DNA from: Hyalangium gracile
GTDB lineage: Bacteria; Myxococcota; Myxococcia; Myxococcales; Myxococcaceae
DNA length: 64,000 bases
NCBI RefSeq assembly: GCF_020103725.1
Contig: NZ_JAHXBG010000017.1
Coordinates: 62,001 to 126,000, forward strand
Reading direction: 5' to 3'
The number at the start of each line of letters is the position of its first letter. Position 1 is the stretch's first letter. A program made the position numbers and the translations under genes. Shown one piece after another: positions 15,698 to 24,069 of the stretch. The notes below the pieces were generated by a model that saw only the letters and a program-made list of their open reading frames with translations, had not been told where the DNA came from and ran no database searches.

Positions 15698-17182
15698 TCA
15701 GGCCCGCTCCACGGCGCGCCTCCACTTGGCCAGGTGCCGCTCACGCACCTCGGGCTTCATCCTCGGCTTGAAGGTGCGCTCGGCCTTCCAGGCCCGGCGG
15801 ATGGCGTCCGGGCTGCTCCACACGCCCGCTCCCAGGCCACCGAGGAAGGCGGCGCCCAGGCTGGTCGTCTCCAGGTTGCGCGGGCGCACCACCGGCGTGT
15901 CCAGCACGTCCGCCTGGTACTGCATCAGCAGGTTGTTGGCCGCCGCGCCGCCGTCCACCTTGAAGGCCGGGATGTCCCGCCCGCTGTCGTGACGCATCGC
16001 GTCCGCCAGGTCGCGGATCTGCAGGGCGATGCCCTCCAGCACCGCGCGCGCCAGGTGCGCCACCGTGGTGGAGCGGTCCATGCCCGCGAACAGGCCGCGT
16101 GCCTCGGGCCGCCAGTGCGGCGCGCCCAGGCCCGCCAGCGCCGGCACGAAGACGACGTCCCCCGAGTCCTTCACGCTCTGGGCGAGCGCCTCGATGTCCG
16201 GCGCCTTCTTGATGACCTTGAGCCCGTCGCGCAGCCACTGCACGGCGGCGCCGGCGATGAAGGAGCTGCCCTCCAGCGCATAGCAAGTCCTATCGCCCAG
16301 CCGCCACGCCACCGTCGTCAGCAGCCCCGCGGTGGAGCGCACCGGCGTCTCGCCCGTGTTCATCAGCAGGAAGGCGCCCGTGCCGTAGGTGCACTTGGAC
16401 TCGCCGGGCTCGAAGCACGCCTGCCCGAAGAGGGCCGCCTGCTGGTCTCCCGCCATGCCCGACACGGGGATGCCGTCCGGCAGGCTCTTCATGCCCTTCG
16501 TGGTGCCGTACACCTCCGCCGAGCCCCGAATCTGGGGCAGGCAGGCGGCCGGCACGCCCAGCAGCGAGCGCAGCTCGTCATCCCAGGCCAGCGAGCGCAG
16601 GTCCATCAGCAGCGTGCGGCTGGCGTTGGACACGTCCGTCACGTGGGCCTCGCCGCCGGTGAGCTTGTAGACGAGCCAGGTGTCGATGGTGCCGAAGCAC
16701 ACATCCCCCTTCTCCGCCCGGGCGCGCGCGCCCTTGAGGTGCTCGAACATCCACGTCAGCTTGGTGCCGGAGAAGTACGGGTCCAGCACCAGGCCCGTCA
16801 CCTCGCGCACCCGGGGCTCCACGCCCTTGGCCTTGAGCTGCTGGCAGATGTCCGCGGTGCGCCGGTCCTGCCAGACGATGGCTCGCCCCAGCGGCCGGCC
16901 CGTGCCGCGCACCCACAGGCCCGTCGTCTCGCGCTGGTTGGTGATGCCCACCGCGGCGATGTCCTGGCCCTCGAGCCCCGCATCCTTGAGCGCCCGGGCG
17001 ATGCAGAACTCGCTGGAGGCCCATATCTCATCCAGGTCGTGCTCCACCCAGGAGGGCTTGGGGAAGTGCTGGGTGAACTCGCGGTAGGCGCGGCCGGCCA
17101 CCTGGAGCCGGGCATCGAGGATGGTGACGTGCGTTCCGGTGGTGCCCTGGTCGATCGCCAGGACGTGCTTCGCCTTCGCCAT
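15698..17182 (-). CDS. glpK: Glycerol kinase
   Basis: 494 aa, the standard length. The N-terminal FGGY-family phosphate-binding loop reads AIDQGTTGTH (residues 10-18), and the TNQRETTGLW and GMAGDQQAALFGQ motifs, along with DGGAAANNLLMQ, are intact. It phosphorylates glycerol to sn-glycerol-3-phosphate with ATP in the cytosol. The GGAGGG site before the chosen ATG supports this start over a longer upstream one. No glycerol facilitator or GlpD gene is adjacent, so it stands alone. It is divergent from the FHA-domain gene. Confidence 0.96.
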   Translation of the reverse strand: MAKAKHVLAIDQGTTGTHVTILDARLQVAGRAYREFTQHFPKPSWVEHDLDEIWASSEFCIARALKDAGLEGQDIAAVGITNQRETTGLWVRGTGRPLGRAIVWQDRRTADICQQLKAKGVEPRVREVTGLVLDPYFSGTKLTWMFEHLKGARARAEKGDVCFGTIDTWLVYKLTGGEAHVTDVSNASRTLLMDLRSLAWDDELRSLLGVPAACLPQIRGSAEVYGTTKGMKSLPDGIPVSGMAGDQQAALFGQACFEPGESKCTYGTGAFLLMNTGETPVRSTAGLLTTVAWRLGDRTCYALEGSSFIAGAAVQWLRDGLKVIKKAPDIEALAQSVKDSGDVVFVPALAGLGAPHWRPEARGLFAGMDRSTTVAHLARAVLEGIALQIRDLADAMRHDSGRDIPAFKVDGGAAANNLLMQYQADVLDTPVVRPRNLETTSLGAAFLGGLGAGVWSSPDAIRRAWKAERTFKPRMKPEVRERHLAKWRRAVERA

Positions 17183-17278
17183 AAGTCCCTCCCGCCGGCG
17201 GGTGGTGCCGGATGGGGGCACCTTACCCGACCCATGGGGGTGGGCAGGGGGCTTCGAGCGGGTTAACCTGTGGACAGT

Positions 17279-17809
17279 ATGCCGTCCGTGCATCAGCTCC
17301 GTCCCTTCGCCGAGGCCCCCCTCGAGGCCTTCCGTGCCGCCTCGGGCCCCGTGGCGCTGATCCAGCAGCCACCGGAGCCCGTGTTCCAGCGGGTGGCGCA
17401 GCAGCTCGAACTGGCGCGCTCAGCGGCCTCGGAGAGCCAGCCCCGGGTGGCGGAGCGGCTGCTGACCATGCTCCAGGGCTTCCAGCACCTGGAGGTGCAC
17501 CTGCTCCAGCCCCGCGTGGATGGAGAGGAGTTCACCGTCGGCCGGATGGACACCTGCATGCTCGTGCTGAAGGATCCGTCGGTGTCCAAGCTTCACGCCC
17601 GGCTGCGCTGGAGCGAGCCGTCCGGCGCGTACACGGTGCGCGACGCGGGCTCGATGAACGGCACCTTCGTCAACACCGTGCCGATCCGCGCCCGCGAGGA
17701 GTTCCAGCTGCGCGACGGGGATGCGCTGTCCTTCGGCGACGTGCAGTTCCTCTACCTGCACACCGACACGCTGCACGCGCACCTGAGGCTCATCCAGGAC
17801 CCGGTGTGA
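17279..17809 (+). CDS. FHA-domain protein
   Basis: 176 aa. Residues about 75-160 form an FHA phosphothreonine-binding domain: VGR, SVSKLHARL and the GSMNGTFVN loop are all present. The N-terminal 70 residues are helical without a recognised domain. There is no membrane segment, so it should be a cytosolic reader of Ser/Thr phosphorylation. It lies 112 bp upstream of two Ser/Thr kinases in the same direction, which makes them likely partners; that is inference. Confidence 0.9.
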   Translation: MPSVHQLRPFAEAPLEAFRAASGPVALIQQPPEPVFQRVAQQLELARSAASESQPRVAERLLTMLQGFQHLEVHLLQPRVDGEEFTVGRMDTCMLVLKDPSVSKLHARLRWSEPSGAYTVRDAGSMNGTFVNTVPIRAREEFQLRDGDALSFGDVQFLYLHTDTLHAHLRLIQDPV

Positions 17810-17906
17810 ACCCCGAGCGCCTTGCCCGGAGGACGCGCGCCGCGTCAGGGCGCACTCGGAGTGTGTGCCCCGCGGCTCCTGGGAACCGGAATCCGGCGCT
17901 GGCTGA

Positions 17907-17912
17907 TAGAGT
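17907..17912 (+). promoter_or_regulatory. Putative -10 hexamer of first tandem kinase
   Basis: TAGAGT, followed by GCGCCCGGC and then the TTG start at 17922. The same hexamer and next six bases occur before the second kinase. No Shine-Dalgarno intervenes, so a transcript would start at or within a few bases of the start codon. Confidence 0.35.
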
Positions 17913-17921
17913 GCGCCCGGC

Positions 17922-20546
17922 TTGAACGAGACCCAGGTCACCCCGTTTGGAAAGTACGAGCTGCTCGAGCGCCTGGGCGCTGGCGGCATGGCCATCGTCT
18001 ATCGCGCGCGCTACACGGCCGCGCCGGGCATCACCAAGCCGGTGGTCATCAAGCGGGTGCTGAGCCACTACGCCGAGGACACCGCCTTCGTGGAGATGTT
18101 CATCCAGGAGGCGCGCATCACGGTGGGGCTCAACCACGGCAACATCGTCCAGGTCTTCGACTTCGGGCAGGTGGACGGCGAGTACTTCCTGGCCATGGAG
18201 CTGGTGGACGGCCAGCCGCTGTCGCGGGTGCTCAAGAAGGCCCAGGCGCTGGGGCTGGGGCAGCTGCCGCCGCCGCTGGCGGTGAGCATCACCATCGAGA
18301 TGTGCAAGGGGCTGCACCACGCCCACACGCGCAAGGACGAGCGCGGGCGACCGCTGGGGCTGGTGCACCGCGACATCTCTCCGGACAACGTCCTCGTCAG
18401 CTACGAGGGCGAGGTGAAGATCTCCGACTTCGGCATCGCCAAGGCGCAGCTGGCGGGCCGGCCGGTGACCGAGGCGGGGATGGTGAAGGGCAAGTACCCC
18501 TACCTCTCGCCGGAGCAGGCGCGCGGGCAGGATGATCTGGACGCGCGCTCGGACGTGTACGCGGTGGGCGTGGTGCTCTACCTCATGCTCTGCGGCCGGC
18601 TGCCGGCGGAGGGGCATGAGCTGTCGGTGTTGCAGCGAGTGATTCAGGGGCAGCTCACCCCGCCGCTCCAGCTCAACCCGGACCTGGACGGCGGGCTGGT
18701 GCAGATCCTCCAGGACGCGCTGGCGCACGACCGCGGCGCGCGCATCCCGAGCGCCGAGGCGCTGCACCAGCAGCTCTCCCACTGGCTGGCCACGCGGGCG
18801 CCGCTCTTTCCGGTGCACTCGCTGAAGCACCTGATGGGCCTGCTCTACGAGGCCGAGCTCACGGCGATGGACCGGGCGCCCCAGCTGCCAGAGAAGTTCC
18901 GGGAGCAGGTGGAGCTGTGGACCAGCTCGCAGAAGCGGGTGGTGCCGCAGGTGGGCAGCCCGGCCCGGACTCCGATGTCTCCGGGCCCGTCCGAGCCGGG
19001 GCCGGAGCGCAGGGAGCCACGCAGGAGCCAGTCGGGGCCGCAGCACACCATGGCGGCCCCACCGGCGACGCAGGCACGCCCGTCGCCCGCGCGTGCGGCG
19101 TCCGCGACCCGAGCGGCACCTCCGACCCGGGCGGCCCCCGTGACGAGTGCGCAGGCCTCGGAGCCAGAGGCAGGCTATCCCCAGACGGAGGAACTGCCGG
19201 CCCAGACGGACAGGCTGCCGGCCCAGACGGAGAAGCTGCCGGCCCAGACGGACAGGATGCAGGCCGTGGAGGGGGAGGACGACGACGACGACGACACCAC
19301 GGGCCTGGTGCCACCCCCACGCAGGCGCCGGGAGCAGCGCGTGCGCCCGGCGCCGGAGGACGCCACGGAGGCGGCGGATCTCCCCGCCGTCCTGCGGACC
19401 CAGCACTTCTGGCTCTGGATCCTCGGCGCGGTGTGCGTGACGGCGCTGATGATCAAGCTGACGATGTCGTTCCTCCTGACCGTTCCGCCGCTGGAGGTCC
19501 ACTCCCAGCCGCCCGGCGCGCTGGTGCGCGTGGACGGCGTCGTCAAGGGCGTCACGCCGCTGACGGTGCAGGGGGTCGCGAGGAAGGAGCCGCACACGGT
19601 GGAGCTGGTCCTGCCCGGCATGAAGGCATGGAGCCAGAGCTTCGACCCCGGCACGCTGGAGGAGAAGCTCCGCGTCACCCTGGAGCCGCAGCCGTCGGCT
19701 CCGCCCGCGCAGCCGGCCCAGCCCGCGCAGGCCGCCCAGCAGAAGTCCCCCACGCCGTCTCCCGCGGCGCCGGAGTCCTTCGCCACCCGGTTCGGCACGG
19801 AGAAGCTGCCCGCGCGCTTCACGCTGCAGGAGAAGTGGCACTCCTTCAGTGCGACGGCGCGCTCGCTCCGCGAGCCGCTCGAGGCGCGGCGCACGTACTC
19901 GGTGTGGCTCTCCGGCTCCTACGTCGGCGAGGCGCCGATCTCGGAGAAGGACTTGCAGCAGGGGCTGACGCCGGACTCGGTGCGCTCCTCGCAGGTGTAT
20001 GCCTTCCTGGAGGGAGCGTCGCTGGCTCCCGAGGACCAGCTGTTCATGGTGACCGCCAGACCGCGCGTCCTGCCGAGCGCCCGGGCGCTGCACGTGTTCG
20101 TCCTGGTGGGGACGAGCTCGGAGCGCAACGTGGACCGGGACCTGACGCTCTTCGTGCGCGACAACACCTCCAAGCAGGTGGTGAAGCGTCGGCTGGAGAC
20201 GAAGCGGTTCGCGCACCTGCTGGCGCTCGAGAACCGCTACTCGGTGCGGCAGCTGGATCCGGATGCCTCGTACACGCTGGAGATCCTGCCCCACGAGGGC
20301 GCTCCGGCGAGCGCCGCGGCGGTGCTCGCGGTGCCTCGGTTCGGAGGGAAGGTCCAGCTGTCGGGGCAGCCGGCGGGAGAGCTCCGCTACGTGCTCGCGT
20401 CCGGCCGCTACACGGTCCAGGGGGCCCGGGAGCTGTGGTTCGCGCTGCCTCGCTGGGAGGGAGATGGCAACGCGGAGATGGATGTGTCCCTCGGGGCGGG
20501 CGAGGCTTCCGAGCCGGAGCCGGCTGCTCCCGTGGAGAGCGACTAG
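17922..20546 (+). CDS. Transmembrane Ser/Thr kinase with PEGA domain (tandem copy 1)
   Basis: 874 aa with a TTG start. The kinase domain (about 10-275) has the Gly-rich loop GAGGMA, catalytic K44, HRD at 149-151 and DFG at 169-171, so it should be active. A conserved helical extension (to about 330) is followed by a Pro/Ala-rich linker with three 21-bp repeats and an acidic run. A transmembrane helix lies at about 495-515. Outside are a PEGA domain (about 520-585) and a C-terminal domain of about 250 residues shared with the next kinase. It should transmit a periplasmic signal to cytosolic phosphorylation. No Shine-Dalgarno is visible. Confidence 0.94.
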   Translation: MNETQVTPFGKYELLERLGAGGMAIVYRARYTAAPGITKPVVIKRVLSHYAEDTAFVEMFIQEARITVGLNHGNIVQVFDFGQVDGEYFLAMELVDGQPLSRVLKKAQALGLGQLPPPLAVSITIEMCKGLHHAHTRKDERGRPLGLVHRDISPDNVLVSYEGEVKISDFGIAKAQLAGRPVTEAGMVKGKYPYLSPEQARGQDDLDARSDVYAVGVVLYLMLCGRLPAEGHELSVLQRVIQGQLTPPLQLNPDLDGGLVQILQDALAHDRGARIPSAEALHQQLSHWLATRAPLFPVHSLKHLMGLLYEAELTAMDRAPQLPEKFREQVELWTSSQKRVVPQVGSPARTPMSPGPSEPGPERREPRRSQSGPQHTMAAPPATQARPSPARAASATRAAPPTRAAPVTSAQASEPEAGYPQTEELPAQTDRLPAQTEKLPAQTDRMQAVEGEDDDDDDTTGLVPPPRRRREQRVRPAPEDATEAADLPAVLRTQHFWLWILGAVCVTALMIKLTMSFLLTVPPLEVHSQPPGALVRVDGVVKGVTPLTVQGVARKEPHTVELVLPGMKAWSQSFDPGTLEEKLRVTLEPQPSAPPAQPAQPAQAAQQKSPTPSPAAPESFATRFGTEKLPARFTLQEKWHSFSATARSLREPLEARRTYSVWLSGSYVGEAPISEKDLQQGLTPDSVRSSQVYAFLEGASLAPEDQLFMVTARPRVLPSARALHVFVLVGTSSERNVDRDLTLFVRDNTSKQVVKRRLETKRFAHLLALENRYSVRQLDPDASYTLEILPHEGAPASAAAVLAVPRFGGKVQLSGQPAGELRYVLASGRYTVQGARELWFALPRWEGDGNAEMDVSLGAGEASEPEPAAPVESD
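19194..19256 (+). repeat. Three 21-bp repeats in kinase linker
   Basis: CTGCCGGCCCAGACGGA recurs at 19194, 19215 and 19236, encoding LPAQT heptads in the cytoplasmic linker before the membrane helix. Repeat number is likely to vary between strains. Confidence 0.8.
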
Positions 20547-20592
20547 CGAACCTTCATCCCACTCCACGGATATGGCCACGGCCCGGGACTGG

Positions 20593-20598
20593 TAGAGT
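20593..20598 (+). promoter_or_regulatory. Putative -10 hexamer of second tandem kinase
   Basis: TAGAGT, followed by GCGCCCATC and then the TTG start at 20608. It matches the site before the first kinase almost exactly, so the control region was duplicated with the gene or is conserved by selection. Confidence 0.35.
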
Positions 20599-20607
20599 GC
20601 GCCCATC

Positions 20608-22872
20608 TTGAGTGGTGGCACGGTCATTCCTTTCGGGAAGTACGAGCTTCTCGAGCGCCTCGGGACGGGGGGAATGGCCATCGTCTACCGTGCGCGCTAC
20701 ATGGCCGCGCCGGGCGTCACCAAGCCGGTGGTCATCAAGAAGGTGCTGGAGGTCTTCGCCGAGGATCCGTCCTTCGTGGAGCAGTTCATCCAGGAGGCGC
20801 GAATCACCGTGGGGCTCAACCACGGCAACATCGTCCAGGTCTTCGACTTCGGGCAGGTGGAAGGCGAGTACTTCCTGGCCATGGAGCTCGTCGAGGGGCA
20901 CCCGCTGTCCCGGGTGCTCAAGCGGGCGCAGACGCAGGGCATGGCGCAGCTGCCGGCGCCGCTGGCGGTGCACATCGCCATCGAGCTGTGCAAGGGGCTG
21001 CACCACGCGCACACGCGCACCGACGAGCGGGGCCGGCCGCTGGGGCTGGTGCACCGGGACGTCTCTCCGGACAACGTCCTCATCAGCTACGAGGGCGAGG
21101 TGAAGATCTCCGACTTCGGAGTCGCCAAGGTGCAGATGGCCGGGCGGCCGGAGACGGAGGCGGGGATGGTGAAGGGCAAGTACCTCTACTTCTCCCCGGA
21201 GCAGGCGCTGGGCGAGGCGCTGGATGCGCGCTCGGACGTGTACGCGGTGGGGGTGCTGCTCTACCGGATGCTCTGCGGGCGGCTGCCGACCGAGGGCTCC
21301 GAGATGGAGGTGATGCGGCGCATCGTCCATGACGAGCTCATTCCTCCGCTCCAGCTCAACCCGCACCTGGATGCGGGGCTGGTGGAGATCCTCGGCGACG
21401 CGATGGCGAGGAAGCGGGAGGACCGCATCGCGAGCGCGGAGGCGCTGCACCACCAGCTCTCCCACTGGCTGGCGAGGCGGGCTCCGCTGTTCCCGGTCCA
21501 CATCCTGAAGCACATGATGGGGATGCTCTACGAGCGCGAGCTGACCGAGCTGGGCCGGCCGCCCCAGGTCCCGCCGAAGTTCCGGGAGCAGCTGACGCAG
21601 TGGAACGCCTCGCACCGCTTGCGCGAGGTGGCCGAGGACAGCCCGGCTCCGGCCGCGGCTTCGCGCACGAAGGAAGAGGAGCTGCCGCTCAACACGGATC
21701 CTTCCGTCCCCGTGATGATGGAGGCGGTGTCGGGCGTGTCCACCGCGGTGGACGAGAAGCCCGTGAAGTCTCGCGGGAAGAGAGCGCTGCTCTGGCTCGT
21801 GAGCCTCGCCGCCGTGGCGCTGGTGGGGCTGGCAGTGGCCTCGTCGTTGCGCCTGCGCCCGCCGCCGCTGGACGTGCACAGCGAGCCGCCCGGGGCCCAG
21901 GTCATCGTGGATGGCATCTCCCGGGGCGTGACGCCGCTGAGGCTGGAGGGCATCGCCCGCGACGCGCCGCACGCGATGGAGCTGAGCCTGAAGGGCATGC
22001 GGATCTGGACGCGTCAGTTCGAGCCCGGGTCGCTGGCCGAGCAGCTCGACGTCACCCTGGAGCCCGTGCCCGCGCCGCCCCCGCCGCCCGTACAGGAGGT
22101 GGTGCAGCCAGAGCCGCCCGCGGAGGAGGACTTCGCCGCCCGACTGGGCACGGACGAGCTGCCCGCGCGCTTCACGCTGGAGGAGAAGTGGCACTCCTTC
22201 AGCGCGACGGCGCGCTCGCTCCGGCAGTCGCTCAACCCGGAGCGGAGCTACACGGTGTGGACCGCGGGCTCCTATACGGGCGATGCGCCGATCTCCGAGC
22301 AGGACATGCGAAAGGGGATGACGCCGGCCTCCTCGCGCTCGGGCCAGGTGTACGTGTTCCTGGAGGGGGAGGAGGTGCCCGCCGGGGAGCGGCTGTTCAT
22401 GGCCTCCGCGAAGCCGCGCACGGTGACGAAGGCTCGGGCGCTGCACGCCTTCACGCTGGTGGGCAGCAATGTCGAGCGCAACCTGAGCCGGAACCTGATC
22501 CTCCTGGTGCGGGAGAACGCCTCGAAGGAGACGCTGCGCCTGAAGCTGGATGCGAAGCGCTACGCGCACCAGGTGGCGCTGGAGAACCGCTACTCGGTGC
22601 GGCAGCTGGAGCCCGAGTTCTCCTACGTCCTGGACATCCAGCCTCACGAGGACGCTCCCGCGAGCCCCGTGGCGGTCCTGGTGGTGCCCAAGCCTCCGGG
22701 GCGGGTGCAGGTGTCGGGGCAGAGCCCGGGAGAGGTCCGGTATGCGCTGCCTCCGGGGCGCTACACCGTGCAGGGCGCCCGGGAGCTCTGGTTCGCGCTC
22801 CCCCGCTCCGAGGGTGGCGGAGAGACGGAGATGGACGTCTCCGTCGACAGGAACATTCCTCCGGAGCCGTAG
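20608..22872 (+). CDS. Transmembrane Ser/Thr kinase with PEGA domain (tandem copy 2)
   Basis: 754 aa with a TTG start. It is a clear paralogue of the preceding kinase: GTGGMA loop, the same HRD (149-151) and DFG (169-171) positions, the same post-kinase extension, one transmembrane helix at about 392-412, PEGA, and the same C-terminal domain that begins near FAARLGTDELPARF. The linker is shorter and lacks the repeats. The kinase domains are far more alike than the linkers, consistent with a tandem duplication in which input and catalytic parts were kept. The unknown C-terminal domain probably senses or assembles in the periplasm. Confidence 0.94.
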   Translation: MSGGTVIPFGKYELLERLGTGGMAIVYRARYMAAPGVTKPVVIKKVLEVFAEDPSFVEQFIQEARITVGLNHGNIVQVFDFGQVEGEYFLAMELVEGHPLSRVLKRAQTQGMAQLPAPLAVHIAIELCKGLHHAHTRTDERGRPLGLVHRDVSPDNVLISYEGEVKISDFGVAKVQMAGRPETEAGMVKGKYLYFSPEQALGEALDARSDVYAVGVLLYRMLCGRLPTEGSEMEVMRRIVHDELIPPLQLNPHLDAGLVEILGDAMARKREDRIASAEALHHQLSHWLARRAPLFPVHILKHMMGMLYERELTELGRPPQVPPKFREQLTQWNASHRLREVAEDSPAPAAASRTKEEELPLNTDPSVPVMMEAVSGVSTAVDEKPVKSRGKRALLWLVSLAAVALVGLAVASSLRLRPPPLDVHSEPPGAQVIVDGISRGVTPLRLEGIARDAPHAMELSLKGMRIWTRQFEPGSLAEQLDVTLEPVPAPPPPPVQEVVQPEPPAEEDFAARLGTDELPARFTLEEKWHSFSATARSLRQSLNPERSYTVWTAGSYTGDAPISEQDMRKGMTPASSRSGQVYVFLEGEEVPAGERLFMASAKPRTVTKARALHAFTLVGSNVERNLSRNLILLVRENASKETLRLKLDAKRYAHQVALENRYSVRQLEPEFSYVLDIQPHEDAPASPVAVLVVPKPPGRVQVSGQSPGEVRYALPPGRYTVQGARELWFALPRSEGGGETEMDVSVDRNIPPEP

Positions 22873-22890
22873 GGACGCGGTGCCCCGCGT

Positions 22891-24069
22891 TCAGCGGGAT
22901 GGCTCCGGGACATCGCCGTAGCCGGTCAGCTCCACGTAGCCGCGCCCCGTGAGGGGCTGGCCCGCGCGCGTGCCCTGGATGCGCACCGCTCCTTCCCAGT
23001 AGCGCACGGTGACCGGCAGCTCCTGGTCCGCCAGCGCCGGAGTGACTTCGAGCACGAGCTGCCGCGACGGGATGGAGAGCCGCCAGCGCGCCGGGTAGGT
23101 GGCTCCGCTGCGAGGGCTGCGCCACGTGTCCAGCACCTCGATGCGCACCTCGTCGCGCGGCAGCCGCACCGCCTCGCCCCGCGCGGAGATGTCCACGCCC
23201 GCGCTGAACGGATCCACGGAGCCATCCTGGAGGCGGAGCTGGTAGTGCATGAACTCGCTGCCATCCGAGAGCTGGAACGCGAACCAGTCCCAGCCCACCT
23301 GGCCAGCGCCGAGCGACTTCGTGCTCCACTCGCGGTCCATCCAGCTCGCGCCCGTCACCTCGTGGGAACGCCCGTCCACCGTCACCGTGCCGCGCGTGGG
23401 CATCCGCGTGAGCGAGTAGTAATAGGAGGCGCTCCCCTCACCCGCCGACTTCTGGCTCAGGCCCCGGTCGCCCTGGAGCACCGGTGGCTTGCCCTCCTCC
23501 AGCGTCAGGGACAGCGCCACGCCGCCCGCCTCCGCCGACATCCGCATGGGGAACACGCCGGCCTCCGCGCCCTCCACCTTCCAGTTCTCCAGCCAGACCT
23601 GGAAGGGCGGGATGCGTGCACCGGCGAGCCCCACGGCCTCCCGGCTGAAGCGCTCGAAGGCATGGAAGCGCCCGGTGGCGATGTCCGACACCGTGAGGTG
23701 CCCCATGTACACGTGCCGCGAGCCCCACTCGGACTCGCGCTTCGCCTCCTGGGGCGCCAGCGCCTTGCGGAACAGCGTGAGCTGGTAGCCGAAGGCGCGC
23801 CCATCCGCCGTCTCCAGGTTTCCCGTCCAGTACCACCACTCGGTGCGGAACTCGGGATGCGGGCCATGGTCCTCGGGAAAGCGGAACTCGCGGACGCCCA
23901 CGGCGCGCGCGTAGCCCTCGGTGCTCTCCGTGCCTCCGAGCGCCTCCGCCACCGTGAGCCGGGCCTGTCCGGTGGGAAGCGCCGGCTCGCGGGTGACGAG
24001 CCAGACTCCGACGCTCAGCCCCGCCAGCGCCAGCACCACTCCGAGAGCCAGTCCCTTGCCGCCGCCCAT
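22891..24069 (-). CDS. AttH/CrtC-like lipocalin-fold protein
   Basis: 392 aa with an N-terminal membrane anchor or signal (about 5-26). The patterns [23 protein letters not shown] and SWMDREWST are hallmarks of the AttH/carotenoid 1,2-hydratase-like family (COG5621-type predicted secreted proteins). The permease gene is 4 bp upstream, and AttH proteins are known to sit with FtsX-type ABC transporters. It probably handles a lipid or hydrophobic ligand in the envelope. A carotenoid hydratase role is not supported, since no carotenoid genes are nearby. Confidence 0.88.

Follow-up and report, generated by a model that had tools for sequence, protein, structure and literature searches.

Two adjacent paralogous Ser/Thr kinases of Hyalangium gracile, which we refer to as K1 and K2, end in a domain that is, judging from profile comparison and structure modelling, an internal tandem duplication of one beta-sandwich repeat of ~ 110 residues. 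It is this outer domain that is newly described here, while the receptor-kinase type to which the proteins belong is already known. We consider it fairly probable that K1 and K2 are single-pass receptor kinases whose C-terminal module senses a ligand in the envelope or outside the cell.

Both genes lie in the window, that is, the whole stretch of 64,000 nucleotides that was analysed from the 11.7 Mb genome, the close relative of which, by matches, is Hyalangium versicolor. They are located on the forward strand, flanked on one side by the divergent glpK-FHA pair and on the other by a CrtC-like lipocalin gene in convergent orientation (Table 1). Each product consists of a Hanks-type Ser/Thr kinase domain (PF00069, 117.6 bits for K1 and 124.0 bits for K2 against a cut-off of 31.7, with HRD and DFG present), a juxtamembrane linker, one hydrophobic helix, a PEGA domain (PF08308) scoring above the gathering cut-off of 20.8, and the C-terminal ~ 235 residues. 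The two proteins are identical at 255 of 337 positions (76%) in the kinase part and at 144 of 235 (61%) in the C-terminal part. A preliminary description of this DNA had proposed two neighbouring Ser/Thr kinases with PEGA and an unnamed C-terminal domain in common, and the open reading frames, the Pfam matches and the C-terminal identity bear this out. Its remark that the linkers differ in length and repeats is also correct: the K1 linker exceeds that of K2 by more than 100 residues and contains a 21-bp (7-residue) repeat in about four copies. The kinase domain would face the cytoplasm and the C-terminal part the outside, although the charges flanking the hydrophobic helix follow the positive-inside rule clearly in K2 (5 vs 2) and not in K1 (1 vs 1).

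Table 1 Coordinates of the features in the window and of related loci
Feature	Position	Strand	Basis or remark
-10-like leaderless element, TAACCT + 9 nt up to FHA ATG	17264..17278	+	TANNNT enrichment
FHA-domain protein, 176 aa, divergent from glycerol kinase gene	17279..17809	+	Pfam FHA 67.5 bits
TAGAGTGCGCCC before K1	17907..17918	+	-10-like TAGAGT, with TTG 9 nt past its end; TAG in-frame stop
K1, Ser/Thr kinase, 874 aa, TTG start	17922..20546	+	ORF list, Pfam
K1 kinase domain, residues 12-284	17955..18773	+	Pfam PF00069 E 8.4e-34; HRD, DFG visible
K1 linker repeat, 21 bp x ~ 4	19180..19265	+	codes four T-[DE]-x-[LM] (T422, T429, T436, T443)
K1 predicted transmembrane helix, ~ residues 496-518	19407..19475	+	Kyte-Doolittle scan
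K1 PEGA, residues 524-585	19491..19676	+	PF08308 34.8 bits
K1 C-terminal domain repeat 1	19809..20162	+	hhalign repeat 1 vs repeat 2; model
K1 C-terminal domain repeat 2	20163..20504	+	hhalign repeat 1 vs repeat 2; models
TAGAGTGCGCCC before K2	20593..20604	+	-10-like TAGAGT, with TTG 9 nt past its end; TAG in-frame stop
K2, Ser/Thr kinase, 754 aa, TTG start	20608..22872	+	ORF list, Pfam
K2 kinase domain, residues 12-283	20641..21456	+	PF00069 E 9.4e-36
K2 predicted transmembrane helix, residues 393-411	21784..21840	+	Kyte-Doolittle scan
K2 PEGA, matched residues 421-470	21868..22017	+	PF08308 22.1 bits, cut-off 20.8
K2 C-terminal domain repeat 1	22162..22515	+	alignment, hhalign repeat 1 vs repeat 2
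K2 C-terminal domain repeat 2	22516..22857	+	alignment, hhalign repeat 1 vs repeat 2
gyrB-side orthologue group	L071, L169, L171, L174, L176, L177		gyrB adjoins in 4/6
CarD-side orthologue group	L186, L170, L172, L175		CarD-domain gene adjoins in 4/4
Same-strand receptor-type kinase cluster	L180 5675-17547 (G096:C42)		
Same-strand receptor-type kinase cluster	L178 9035-18481 (G101:C1)		
Same-strand receptor-type kinase cluster	L181 10182-19682 (G110:C1)		

The four T-[DE]-x-[LM] motifs of the K1 linker are possible phosphorylation sites. Neither the K2 linker nor the K1-like gene of another genome (G081) showed any of them, so the repeat seems to be a local feature of K1.

When the C-terminal domain of K1, K2 and related proteins was compared with Pfam and NCBIfam, where a match to a well-known family had been looked for, only weak partial fibronectin type III (fn3) and chance-level matches were obtained, and the domain is indeed without a name in these collections. 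Nor did we find a description of it in the open-licence literature that was searched. For profile building, 34 locus proteins were used, of which four with unclear reading frames (L019, L023, L025 and L029) were dropped; iterated profiles recovered 31 segments of the domain in the 30 that remained, and the final alignment, A1, comprises 28 rows, omitting L004 and L018, in which the domain is incomplete. The alignment of repeat 1 with repeat 2 in hhalign gave a probability of 96 (E 4.4e-9) and a score of 52 over 95 columns, while 200 column shuffles scored at most 17.6 and a reversed control 8.4. Each repeat has an LxPxxxYxV motif towards its beginning and GAxxL ahead of the last strands, often followed by DNxG, and the alignment contains invariant L, Y, G and P columns. 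The AlphaFold model derived from A1 (pLDDT 92.3, pTM 0.88) is all beta apart from one short helix. Repeat 2 modelled alone folds less well (pLDDT 79, with the first ~ 20 residues low), which suggests, as a guess from this weaker model, that the first strands are possibly swapped between the repeats.

Fold searches with these models returned only generic beta sandwiches, so that no known relative can be named. The best Foldseek match in the PDB was XepA (E 9e-4, TM about 0.2), and the best VIA-align Z was 7.1 for the full domain and 5.8 for repeat 2 alone, the matches including GOLD, PliG, CUB, cupin and XepA. The domain has the general beta-sandwich or jelly-roll shape of XepA/YomS, PliG, GOLD and CUB-like proteins, but no sequence similarity to them was found, Z is low and the likeness may be a mere common arrangement of strands. 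A phage DUF7265 protein, the top match in a viral structure library (E 8.4e-5), was set aside at a TM of 0.2. That the domain is a pair of fn3 modules is very improbable, even though weak Pfam fn3 matches occur in 19 of the 28 A1 sequences (best E 7.8e-4) and the PDB profile matches are fn3 chains: the matches span mainly the short LxPxxxYxVxV stretch, and fn3 membership of K1 and K2 was rejected, as the full-length proteins gave no fn3 (PF00041) match at E up to 10. Neither fn3 nor LecA nor PASTA was among the best 50 fold-search matches listed, which is no proof of their absence.

Another question is how widely the domain occurs and whether it is ever found apart from a kinase. The in-depth search covered the phylum, and a scan of genome contigs with two conserved peptides led to two loci. 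With the A1 profile (E 1e-5 or better), 82 of the 195 Myxococcota genomes gave a match, namely, 79 of the 96 genomes of the window's family, three from two further families of its order and none elsewhere in the phylum; at most 15 candidates per genome were scored, and the counts per genome are lower bounds. Conservation of the domain among orthologues, an expectation of the preliminary description, is borne out by these profile matches. Myxobacteria have many Ser/Thr kinases, and at least 153 Pkinase matches were counted in the genome of H. gracile, where the repeat profile finds just six open reading frames, all of them kinases. Across all loci, 132 open reading frames with the domain were collected, a redundant set that includes truncated loci. 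No kinase match was found in 18 of them, of which 16 run open at a locus or contig end, one (L074) is overlapped by a frame that encodes the kinase and one (L079) lies near a contig end; with 17 of the 18 attributable to truncation or a frame break, there was no clear case of a stand-alone copy among the 132. PEGA was present in nine of the ten further domain-bearing kinases tested, and some members have, by eye, TPR-like sequence after the domain. The order-limited spread, the six kinases out of six in the own genome, the lack of a clear kinase-less reading frame and the frequency of PEGA make the domain look like a module that is tied to kinases, belongs to one myxobacterial order and usually follows PEGA.

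Two old orthologue groups, each spread over several genera, are recognisable by their neighbours, one beside gyrB (four of six loci) and the other beside a gene for a CarD-domain protein (all four loci). In Myxococcus-like genomes (g19), kinases of the subfamily stand next to each other in numbers of 4, 5, 4 and at least 3 (G101, G096, G110 and G111, respectively); the domain is carried by 3, 3, 3 and 2 of them, and the others end in TPR-like sequence. The K1/K2 pair of the window therefore appears as one of several amplifications.

The relative pace of evolution of the two ends of these proteins was assessed from quick tree searches without bootstrap on the 50 of 54 distinct rows that have a nearly complete kinase domain. 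The main clades agree between the kinase-domain tree and the C-terminal-domain tree (50 sequences each), and the pairwise distances are correlated (r 0.82), with the C-terminal domain changing ~ 2.9 times faster. K2 is sister to an H. versicolor kinase, and K1 is nearest to a third paralogue of the same genome (K3, C1:274031) in the kinase tree, although that fork is weak. The domain thus changes as a sensor would; such a rate would also be expected of a weakly constrained tail, a reading disfavoured by a conserved fold with invariant columns.

These observations allow a mechanism to be proposed. PEGA and the two-repeat module would lie in the periplasm, where PEGA, described in PMC7159879 as peptidoglycan-associating, may hold the receptor near peptidoglycan, and the fast-evolving module would bind an envelope or extracellular ligand. 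Binding would pair two chains, whose kinase domains would act by phosphorylation first on each other and afterwards on targets in the cytoplasm, in the manner of PASTA-type kinases; one of these, PrkC, binds wall fragments through its extracellular region (PMC5786024). Gene duplication, in the window pair, the third paralogue and the Myxococcus-like clusters, would have given rise to related receptors with diverged sensors.

The inferred topology of K1 and K2 recalls that of the PASTA receptor kinases (PknB, StkP and PrkC), in which a bitopic Hanks kinase bears an extracytoplasmic C-terminal sensor, and the solved kinase domains nearest to K1 and K2 are those of PknA, StkP and PknB. In contrast to the PASTA kinases, K1 and K2 gave no Pfam match to PASTA at E up to 10 and carry PEGA and the unnamed duplicated beta-sandwich in its place; in the NCBIfam model PknB_PASTA_kin (NF033483), they score 242.3 and 236.9 bits, respectively, below the cut-off of 450. 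PknD-type kinases, according to PMC2877116, fuse an outer all-beta sensor, a beta-propeller, to a bacterial Ser/Thr kinase, whereas the domain of K1 and K2 consists of two tandem beta-sandwich repeats and has no propeller repeat. With PEGA-domain proteins they share a PEGA above the Pfam cut-off, which in K1 and K2 is followed by the unnamed duplicated module.

The preliminary description had seen a sensor in this module, and much of that picture holds: the domain is unnamed, probably extracytoplasmic, conserved in orthologues and faster to change than the kinase domain; sensing itself we infer. The module could instead be structural, mediating oligomerisation and binding nothing. A scaffold for dimerisation or wall anchoring that lacks a specific ligand, so that PEGA and the module just position the kinase, seems rather unlikely to us. 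Such a scaffold would agree with structural neighbours that are generic beta sandwiches or jelly rolls, with no binding family prominent among them, and with an outer part that looks modular, since PEGA may be missing and TPR-like sequence added; the fast divergence between paralogues, both in the K1/K2 pair and over the 50 kinases, is, however, more typical of sensors. Among 54 distinct domains, DNxG is present in both repeats of 19, in repeat 1 only of two, in repeat 2 only of 16 and in neither repeat of 17, while shuffled sequences show it in the repeat 1 window at a rate of 0.2%. In a subset of A1 (A5; 14 of the 28 rows, picked for carrying the motif), it is invariant in 28 of 28 repeats. 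A distant family (f8) also has it, in both repeats of L083 and in repeat 2 of L084, and no member of the K1/K2/K3 clade carries it. DNxG is therefore probably ancestral, and its loss in the K1/K2/K3 clade is the simplest history.

The motif is possibly a metal site: in both repeats, it stands before the last strand as D-x(4-6)-DNxG, an arrangement that we take to resemble the calcium site of the galactose lectin LecA. An ancestral domain that bound its target in a calcium- or metal-dependent manner, with the K1/K2 clade having lost the site and now recognising something else or nothing, is possible but somewhat doubtful; the frequency of the motif far above the shuffled level and its distribution between f8 and the K1/K2/K3 clade speak for it, but DNxG may be just a tight beta turn, and no Pfam match to a LecA-like family was found in 28 repeats at E up to 10. 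Returning to the ligand-sensing receptor, we put forward, as a tentative extension with a less than even chance, that an undescribed extracytoplasmic ligand-binding module arose by tandem duplication of a DNxG-bearing beta-sandwich and became a receptor-kinase sensor in one myxobacterial order, that clusters of as many as five neighbouring kinases, with diverged copies on two or three members, grew by gene amplification, and that the putative metal sites disappeared from the branch that includes the window pair, whose specificity changed. The branches with and without DNxG provide a built-in comparison, and a sensor-like module that is confidently modelled and has orthologues beside gyrB or a CarD-domain gene is a concrete target for a signal search.

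The preliminary description had also pointed to an identical promoter-like stretch upstream of both kinases and had taken it for a shared control site. The stretch itself is there, as the 12-mer TAGAGTGCGCCC occurs exactly twice in the window, before K1 and before K2, and again before the third paralogue, with TTG 9 nt after TAGAGT in all three cases; its special role did not stand. Genome-wide, eight copies were found, four per strand (four and none for the backward control). All eight precede possible gene starts, but five of these genes do not encode kinases of this family; of the five copies, two lie 6-8 nt from a start codon, and the other three are followed by leaders of 12-24 nt. In 344 kb of the genome with 211 called genes, 28 of the 107 TANNNT cases (26%) stand 6-10 nt ahead of an in-frame start, against 4-10% (2/20 to 26/302) for seven control patterns, including TANNNA (8/107) and TNNNAT (26/302). 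The kinase orthologues keep a TANNNT-like hexamer 6-9 nt before the start (TAGAGTGGGGCC, TACAGTGCGCCC, TAGTTT, TAGTCT and TAGGCT), while the rest of the 12-mer changes; this comparison leaves out four loci (L100-L103), which the search string missed. With the exact 12-mer before varied genes, the hexamer enriched and the 12-mer variable among orthologues, TAGAGTGCGCCC is most simply a generic -10 element of leaderless transcripts, and a common regulatory site co-ordinating both kinases is extremely improbable. K1 and K2 would each probably have a leaderless -10 promoter of this general type. A sigma-70 and terminator scan of positions 17150-23000 gave no site at the kinase starts.

An in-frame TAG within the hexamer bars any earlier start codon in K1, K2, K3 and the G081 gene, and TTG is the first possible one, so that a leaderless UUG start is likely. 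Three such apparent starts, at 17907-17924 and 20593-20610 of the window and at G000:C1:276464 (L090), have no visible Shine-Dalgarno sequence. Among the papers listed in a search of the open-licence literature, none dealt with leaderless starts in the genus Myxococcus.

Finally, the FHA protein upstream had been suggested as the reader of the kinases, and it does adjoin K1 on the same strand at a distance of 112 nt. FHA domains have a preference that fits phosphorylated T-[DE]-x-[LM] motifs, and the four in the K1 linker would be readable by FHA if phosphorylated. A dedicated phospho-reader of K1 and K2 is nevertheless improbable, as those motifs are confined to K1 in the comparison above, and the FHA gene keeps other company. 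The pairing of glpK with FHA is found in seven of seven genomes of the genus and in a sister genus (G083), where the order glpK-FHA-CrtC, with a CrtC-like gene after FHA, is uninterrupted by a kinase. The 1.5 kb around FHA are free of kinases in G077-G080, and homologues of the FHA protein occur in 90 of the 96 genomes of the family. Because glpK-FHA stands without a kinase elsewhere, K1 and K2 look like later arrivals beside it, or else the kinases were lost in the other genomes; from such gene orders, the adjacency of FHA and kinase is poor evidence of a partnership. In H. versicolor, two opposite-strand open reading frames (L069, 2523-4309) separate the FHA gene from the kinase. One of the two resembles, by eye, a hydrolase of the metallo-beta-lactamase fold.
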